DNA from: Methanoculleus sp. 7T
GTDB taxonomy: Archaea > Halobacteriota > Methanomicrobia > Methanomicrobiales > Methanoculleaceae
Direction: 5' to 3'
Assembly: GCF_023195915.1 (NCBI RefSeq)
Contig: NZ_JALPRP010000001.1
Coordinates: 186,001-250,000, forward strand
DNA: 64,000 bases
Shown here: positions 54,458-64,000 of the stretch, piece after piece
Numbering within the stretch: the first letter of the stretch is position 1
How the letters are laid out: each line of letters opens with the position of its first letter
Position numbers and translations under genes: made by a program
The notes under the pieces: generated by a model
Database searches by the model: none
What the model saw: the letters and a program-made list of their open reading frames with translations, nothing else
What the model was told of the DNA's origin: nothing

Positions 54458-55417
54458 TCAGTCCTGCCGCTGCCGATTACGGGCTTCGGCGATCCGGGCC
54501 TCTGCGATCGCCCGGTAGGCCGGGTCGATCTCGAATCCTATGTAATCCGTGCCGAGGGTGATTGCTGCGAGTGCCGTACTCCCGATGCCCATGAAGGGGT
54601 CGAGAACCAGCGTCCCCGGCAGGCAGCCGTGGAGCCGGATGCACATCTCCGGGAGTTTCTCCGGGAAACTGGTAGGATGGGGCCGGGAGGAGCGGATGGT
54701 CCGGTAGGGGATGAACCAGGCGTTTCCCCGGTCACGGAGGTCGCGTCCCGCCGCTTTCCACCGCCCGATGTTGCTCTTGTCCTGGTAAGGCACGCCGACG
54801 CCCAGTTTGTCCAGAGCCACGTCCCCGTTCTTCGTGAAGTGGAAGATGTGCTCGTGGCACTGGCTCAGGTAGCGGGAACTGTTCACCGGCTGGTAGTGGC
54901 CGACGGCGATGTCGCCGGCGACGTTCTCATAGTTTCCCACATCCTCTTTTGCGATGGCGATCGACTTGACCCAGTGGATGACGTTCTGCAGCGCAAAGTG
55001 CGGGCGGAACTGCTGGACGACGTCGAAGGGGATCCAGGGGTCCCGGGGTTTGCCGCCGATGTTGAGGAAGAACGAGCCGTCGTCGGCGAGGACCCGTGCC
55101 GCTCCGGCGGCGACCCGCCCCATCCAGTCGAGGTAGTCTTCCCGGGGCTTCTGGTCGTCGTAGGAGTTGTACTCCTTCCCGATGTTGTAGGGCGGCGACG
55201 TGACGATGATATCGACCGAGCCTGCCGGGAGGCGCTGCATGCCCTCTATGCAGTCCATGGTATGGATGGTGTTGATAGCAAGCCCGCCGGGCCCGGGCTC
55301 CCCTCTCTTCCCTTCTGCCACTCCGATCACATACTGGTTTGCGGTCCTCCGCAAAAAGGTGAACGAACCGGTCCCGGTGCAGCCGGCCGCCGCCTGCACC
55401 ACTGCACGCGGCCGCAA
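54458..55417 (-). CDS. Site-specific DNA methyltransferase (N4-C or N6-A)
   Basis: A DNA aminomethyltransferase whose conserved part begins at [20 protein letters not shown]. Motif IV is TSPPYN, motif I is [14 protein letters not shown] located after it, giving the beta-class order. TSPPYN is commonest in N4-cytosine enzymes but also seen in some N6-adenine enzymes. The start is unclear: the 319-residue frame includes about 48 extra N-terminal residues, and GTG at 55330 is a likely alternative. No restriction gene is seen beside it, so it may be an orphan methylase. Confidence 0.85.
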
Positions 55418-55432: not shown

Positions 55433-55804
55433 TCAGGGTGCGCCTGACGCCGTATCCTCCCCGTCGACCACCGCCTGCCGCATCCTCTCGAGGGCATCGA
55501 CGAGGTCTTCGACCTGGTACGGGGTGAGCCCTCCGCTCCGGGAGTCGCCAGGTTCGAGGTGCACGATCTGGAGGAGTGCGTCTTTGAGAACCTCGAGGCG
55601 GCTCTCAGGGGGGAGGATGACTTCGAACCGGTGGAAGATGCGGTCCGGGACGCAGACGAAGTCACCGTGGATGGACGCAAATGAGAGGATCTCGTCTGCA
55701 GCGAGGACATTCCCCTGGTCTACACCGACCTCGAGGACCGCCGGCGAGACCCCGGGGTTAGCGGTGTCCTCTTGTGTAAAACAACGAACGATCTTGATAT
55801 TCGT
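55433..55804 (-). CDS. Hypothetical protein with apparent ACG start codon
   Basis: A coherent 123-codon frame with normal host codon use. The product starts (M/T)NIKIVRCFTQEDTANPGVS and contains GDFVCVPDRIFHRFEVILPP and LTPYQVEDLVDALERMRQAV. It has no ATG, GTG or TTG in frame before codon 100. GGAGGAG (55816-55810) sits 5 bases before ACG at 55804-55802, the distance of a normal start, and a TATA-like ACTATATCC lies about 45 bases upstream. Either ACG is used, a neighbouring ATC is used, or the base is a mutation or sequence error. No known domain is recognised. Confidence 0.65.
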   Translation of the reverse strand, partial: TNIKIVRCFTQEDTANPGVSPAVLEVGVDQGNVLAADEILSFASIHGDFVCVPDRIFHRFEVILPPESRLEVLKDALLQIVHLEPGDSRSGGLTPYQVEDLVDALERMRQAVVDGEDTASGAP

Positions 55805-55920
55805 GGGTGCTCCTCCGGTTTCTGGTGGGATATTCTCTGCGGGAGAGGATATAGTTGTGATGGGGGACGAGGTGACGTGTGGGGGGCCTCAAGGCCGAGG
55901 CCTTCCAACACATCGGGAGG

Positions 55921-62923: not shown

Positions 62924-62934
62924 GAAGGTGACCT

Positions 62935-64000
62935 ACGTACAGCATACGGTTCTACCGGATCTACGATATCGGTGAGGAAGTCGACCTTGACGGGCTCGAA
63001 GAGGCGCTTACCGCCGGGGATGCCGTCGGCCCGGGCGATTTTGCCAGGGTCAGGCCGAAGTCGATCTCTATGGAGTCCCCGCCGGTGCTCATCCGGCTTC
63101 CGCCGGTAAATCTGGAGGTCGGCGGGCGCGATCATCGGATGACCGTCGCCGCACGGATATTTGATATCGGCGCCGTCAGCGTCTGCTTGAACCTTGAAGA
63201 CCTCAAAGCGCCCGCGGCGGACCTTCCGGCAACGGCGTTCCGCTTCGCAGGCCAGAGCGGCCTCACCCCGCTCTTCTCGGCATCTCTCAAGAGATTATTG
63301 GAGACACTGGGGCCCATCCTCGGGGACCGCTCCGTCGATCCCGATTTCTTTGAGGATTACACCATCTTCATCGCCGACCGGCCCGCCGAGGCGATCGACC
63401 CCGTCGCCCTCCTCCTCGGGGAGGAGAGGGAGTTCAGTCAGGAGACCCGTGCCGATATCCTCAAAAACTCCCTGAGTTACGGATGCGACGACCTTACCGT
63501 CCTCTCTTGGGATACCGCCCTCCTCATCGGCCCCGAGCCGCCCGGAGACCTCATCGAACTCCTCGAGTTCGCGAACGTCCAGGCGCTGGAGTTCCGGTAC
63601 TACGACCGGGTGCTGACGGAGCAGATGGGGCGGATGTACGATGACATCGAGGCCGTGGATAGGAGGTTCTTCTTCCGTCGGATCGGCCAGTACCATGCCA
63701 TCATGACCCGGCTCATGGAGACGCACGCCGAGATATCGGAGATCACCGAGAAGGTCGATAACCTCATCAAGACGACCAATGACGTCTACTATGCCCGCGT
63801 CTACGGCCATGCCTTAACCGTCCTCCGTATATCGCAGTGGCGTGCGAGCGTCAACCGGCGGATCGACCTGATCCGGCAGAACTACATGATGCTCTCCGAT
63901 GAGGTCAACATACGCCACTCGAACTTCCTCGAGTTCGTCGTCATCCTGCTGATCGCCCTCGAGGTCGTCTTCTTGGTCTGGGAGCAGGCCGGGACGGGGT
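62935..64000 (+). CDS. RMD1/DUF155 family protein, partial, apparent ACG start
   Basis: A window-truncated gene of at least 355 codons. N-terminal (M/T)YSIRFYRIYDIGEEVDLDG, DUF155-type middle and C-terminal helices (YGHALTVLRISQWRASVNRR, then SNFLEFVVILLIALEVVFLV, a membrane helix) match COG1723/RMD1. Only CCT separates an in-frame TGA from ACG at 62935, and AGGTGA sits 3 bases before it, so initiation at ACG (or an internal GTG near 63088 that would lose 50 conserved residues) is implied. Yeast RMD1 relatives sit in mitochondrial membranes; archaeal role unknown. Confidence 0.75.

Follow-up and report, generated by a model that had tools for sequence, protein, structure and literature searches.

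The window analysed here is a stretch of 64,000 nucleotides from Methanoculleus sp. 7T (contig NZ_JALPRP010000001.1, positions 186,001 to 250,000), and on its reverse strand lies a gene of 123 codons in which ACG occupies the place of the start codon (gene, 55433..55804; ACG, 55802..55804; stop codon TGA, 55435-55433). The original prediction, made from the sequence alone, had proposed a coherent 123-codon frame beginning with ACG at 55804-55802, and this is confirmed by translation, which gives a product of 123 aa, and by the coding signal. Codon statistics were trained on the genome's own long frames; by this measure, the coding signal relative to other frames is +38 for the 124 codons that begin with ACG and end with the stop, and -5.6 for the 28 codons 5′ of ACG. 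On the same strand, the Shine-Dalgarno (SD) sequence GGAGGAG (55810..55816) stands 5 nt from ACG, or 7 nt when counted from GGAGG, and a TATA-like promoter element, CTATAT (55849..55854), stands 50 nt 5′ of ACG; both had been part of the original prediction and are present as described. The further claim that the frame contains no ATG, GTG or TTG holds as far as codon 81, where an in-frame GTG occurs, followed by other standard starts at codons 108 and 112, all of them deep within the conserved protein. Directly 3′ of the ACG gene is an N6/N4 DNA methylase gene (54458-55417, reverse strand), which is found likewise 3′ of the ACG gene in four other Methanoculleus loci compared, while the sister-genus contig gave no match to the methylase. 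A near-perfect palindrome, TTTGCGGAGGACCGCAAA (window 55338-55355), lies between these two genes beside a short T run, and related forms of it occur in other Methanoculleus loci; it could be a terminator or an operator.

Orthologues of the ACG gene, taken one per genome, number 29, of which 28 come from Methanoculleus genomes (the window's included) and one from a sister genus. Protein identity is 61-78% to the relatives in the 27 other Methanoculleus genomes and 49% to the sister-genus orthologue (G036). M. chikugoensis and M. sediminis are among the species in which the gene is present. The gene is absent from seven Methanoculleus genomes, and among 232 genomes of the order/class no family members were found outside three genera of one family. 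With every locus oriented and the window included, the aligned first codon is ACG in 29/29 orthologues across two genera, so that the comparison suggested alongside the original prediction comes out in support of real use. The initiation signals are conserved with it: GGAGG with a spacer of 7-8 nt is present in 28/29 orthologues (L019 has GGGGG), and a TATA-like element, in a loose pattern, lies 48-60 nt 5′ of ACG in 29/29. Folding of the mRNA around ACG, judged by eye, revealed no structure in common.

How strictly the codon is held can be read from its third base. Twelve ungapped four-fold codon columns share their first two bases in all 29 sequences, and on the gene tree, whose total length is 3.3 substitutions/site, the third base changed 0 times at the ACG column and 1 to 9 times at each of the other 11. 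Threonine codons inside the gene vary among ACG (54), ACC (26), ACA (8) and ACT (4). Judged from these sequence comparisons, the ACG column is kept beyond the needs of a threonine codon. It also marks the 5′ boundary of protein-coding constraint, as seen in the coding score, in dN < dS and in closure of the frame upstream. In most pairs dN lies far below dS, both over codons 2-45 and over the gene in its entirety (0.12 vs 0.34 to L002 and 0.20 vs 0.59 to L012, for example), and whole-gene dN/dS is about 0.2-0.4. Upstream of ACG, the frame stays open for just 5 codons in three orthologues and for 8-21 in several others, and its translation appears unconserved by eye. No standard start codon is common to the whole family; several orthologues are free of them up to codon 100, and the open frame of L026 contains none at all.

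An internal control is provided by a clade of paralogues with about 25-35% identity to the ACG gene, found in some Methanoculleus genomes, the window's included, and in another genus. Twelve of these paralogues start with ATG or GTG exactly at the ACG column, and the start column is therefore fixed by homology. The protein tree separates the clade of the 12 ATG/GTG paralogues (support 1.0) from a single clade of all 29 ACG sequences (support 0.95), which indicates one origin of the ACG start followed by its retention. The paralogues L031 and L087 lie in variable neighbourhoods, one of them near a predicted ArdC-like antirestriction gene, which suggests mobile or plasmid-derived DNA.

We screened the 2.0 Mb main contig of the 2.6 Mb genome, with 1,866 predicted genes, for genes with coding signal before any ATG, GTG or TTG. 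The 55433-55804 gene ranked first of the 1,866, losing 26.4 of its coding signal if forced to a standard start. Among the other matches, several (e.g., C1:1172862, 1381314, 790616 and 145164) resembled antisense frames or decaying genes and were set aside. The fourth match is a second ACG-start gene of about 355 codons on the forward strand of the window (62935..64000; ACG, 62935-62937), unrelated to the first, which runs to C1:250002 with its stop just past the window end. Its ACG is preceded by AAGGTGACCT, and the SD sequence AGGTGA (62926..62931, forward strand) recurs 5′ of ACG in most ACG homologues, with a shorter GGTGA in one. ACG is shared by nine genomes in four genera, namely the window's and eight genomes of three other genera (G043; G096 and G097; G055, G224, G225, G226 and G231). 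At the same column, four relatives in the genus of the last five genomes have GTG, and the remaining homologues inspected have ATG, GTG or TTG. Close relatives that swap ACG for GTG at a single column show the pattern expected of a functional start codon. This second gene is absent from the other Methanoculleus genomes searched, and its product has no match in Pfam or NCBIfam.

Four other accounts of the ACG were weighed. One, raised with the original prediction, places initiation at the near-cognate ATC two codons 3′ of ACG and makes ACG merely part of the leader. ATC belongs to the same weak-start class as the AUU of E. coli infC and pcnB (PMC9410913), codon 3 is ATC in 28/29 orthologues, and another gene of the window's genome appears to start at ATC/ATT. 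Yet codon 3 is ATA in the remaining orthologue (L003), the distance from GGAGG to ATC is 13 nt vs 7 for ACG, and in the paralogues it is the ACG column that carries ATG or GTG, their own third codon being ATA, CTG or similar. A leader codon, moreover, would not need to go without a single third-base change over 29 sequences, and we consider initiation at ATC unlikely. The original prediction also allowed for a T-to-C mutation or a sequence error, by which a degenerate or mis-sequenced gene copy would have lost its start. ACG does differ from ATG by a single base, but it is identical in 29 genomes comprising independent isolates and MAGs, whose independent assemblies exclude both mutation and error, and the protein-level constraint and the preserved SD and TATA elements likewise speak against decay, so that this is the least credible of the four.

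The two other accounts leave the start at ACG in the DNA and change how it would be read. C-to-U editing of the mRNA would turn ACG, and exactly this codon, into an ordinary AUG start, as in the plant plastid cases described in PMC9845219. Such editing at a second base cannot account for the CTG and probable ATC/ATT starts found in the genus, and around the two ACG sites no common sequence was apparent by eye. Archaea are not known to us to edit C to U in their mRNA, and we regard this account as very improbable, more so than initiation at ATC. Initiation with threonine by tRNA-Thr(CGU) appears more doubtful still: a tRNA-Thr(CGT) cognate to ACG is present at C1:824763, but its anticodon stem is GCTGA/TCAGC rather than the G-C rich stem of an initiator, and an ordinary initiator tRNA-Met is present. 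Scanning 2.0 of the 2.6 Mb, we found the initiator tRNA-Met(CAT) and the anticodon stem of tRNA-Thr(CGT) to be ordinary and saw no dedicated ACG initiator tRNA.

The reading we favour, with a probability of roughly 0.85, is that this is a real protein gene with a natural ACG start, where initiation would be assisted by the SD sequence and carried out by the ordinary initiator tRNA, and the weak codon would be kept by selection. From the comparisons above we infer translation from ACG. Transcription would probably begin from the TATA-like box about 50 nt 5′ of ACG and yield a short leader, in which GGAGG, 7-8 nt before ACG, would set the codon in the P site. There, the ordinary initiator Met-tRNA would pair with the first and third bases of ACG, with a C-A mismatch in the middle, and decoding by this tRNA would give a protein that begins with methionine. 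Weak start codons reduce output, and initiation at ACG is likely to be inefficient. That ACG has long been retained, though a single base change would make it ATG, suggests that selection favours a low or regulated output, such that the product may be needed at a low or regulated level.

Other genes of the genus also appear to have non-standard starts. A glycosyltransferase-like gene (L152:18288-19409; C1:1079409, reverse strand) has a CTG start, which lies behind AGGAGG and follows AGGAGGGCACCCC; CTG is found in six Methanoculleus genomes (the window's and five more), and ATG stands at the column in the other homologues inspected. For a tRNA (t6A37) methylthiotransferase (TIGR01578; L119:9903-11132, forward strand; C1:409903-411135), most Methanoculleus have ATC or ATT at the probable start, with ATG there in three genomes and GTG in one. 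This case is less clean, in that the outgroups begin two codons further in and an ATG stands two codons earlier in two species. An asparaginase-like gene, so named from its translation (L118:1003, reverse strand; C1:381003), has a possible ATA start behind GGAGGATGATAGC, with no standard start nearby. All the non-standard starts studied lie behind an SD-like sequence in the window's genome, whereas a nearby standard start with an SD match of at least 5 bases is present in only about 30% (543/1,823) of the predicted genes. This hints that a strong SD compensates for a weak codon, in a comparison biased by candidates having been picked partly by their SD. Tentatively, and at somewhat less than even odds, Methanoculleus and its relatives may use an extended set of starts, with ACG, CTG and ATC/ATT besides ATG, GTG and TTG, read by the normal initiator tRNA behind a strong SD. 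Such starts would have been retained for as long as the genus has existed and would put a brake on certain genes, one that might respond to the stringency of initiation.

Pfam and NCBIfam searches with the ACG gene and eight orthologues gave nothing above chance, and no relatives were found in viral contigs. For the product, a small beta-alpha-beta-beta-alpha domain is predicted (mean pLDDT 80), to which N-terminal strands and a C-terminal helix are added. Structural comparison gave weak matches to a scatter of folds (Foldseek E 0.04 and Z 6.5 at best). LAGLIDADG nucleases, KH domains, DCoH and monooxygenases were considered as fold relatives and set aside, all being weak. The modified nucleoside t6A influences start selection, and this effect, together with the beta-alpha-beta-beta-alpha model, led us to consider the KEOPS subunit Pcc1 (PF09341). 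Profile comparison did not support a relation to Pcc1, and the idea was dropped: when the family was aligned by hhalign with 13 Pcc1 proteins from the order, the probability was 0.4%, and each of the 47 good-quality genomes searched encodes a Pcc1 of its own at another place. In the fold comparison, Pcc1 chains appear at Z 5.5 amid many unrelated folds of equal Z.

Initiation at codons other than AUG is known from several systems. ACG serves as a natural start in eukaryotes and their viruses, as in the Sendai virus P/C mRNA, and a further reported viral example is a small luteovirus/polerovirus ORF (PMC4422679). The archaeal gene is like these in its natural use of ACG, but where the eukaryotic and viral cases depend on scanning ribosomes and codon context, the archaeal codon is placed by an SD sequence. 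Among prokaryotic genes, E. coli infC, which encodes IF3, and pcnB have AUU start codons, and the weak codon of infC is used for self-regulation by IF3 (PMC9410913). These genes too keep a near-cognate start, although ACG mismatches the initiator anticodon at the middle base and not the third, and the product of the ACG gene, unlike that of infC, has no known link to initiation. In plant plastids, rpl2, psbL and ndhD have ACG starts that are edited C-to-U to AUG in the mRNA (PMC9845219); these conserved genes resemble the archaeal one in having ACG in the DNA where the start is aligned, but editing makes AUG and would not explain the CTG and ATT starts in Methanoculleus. The archaeal start codons listed in a review are AUG, GUG and UUG (PMC7531240). 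ACG falls outside this standard set, while sharing with it an SD leader and an ordinary initiator tRNA. No ACG start was found in those passages of two reviews of archaeal initiation that were searched, and the literature covered, mostly without subscription journals and preprints, gave no description of such a start in bacteria or archaea. Non-AUG initiation in itself is known; a conserved archaeal ACG start is, within the reach of these searches, a new form of it.

Prokaryotic gene finders and NCBI table 11 reject ACG, with the consequence that such genes are missed or truncated. The two genes described here would also offer a natural system in which to test the roles of aIF1, aIF1A and aIF2 in start-codon stringency, since close homologues differ in having ACG or GTG. 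With ACG held across a genus in one gene and found over four genera in a second, an archaeal ribosome would appear able to use a codon that is mismatched at its middle base, and to do so sufficiently well that selection retains it.
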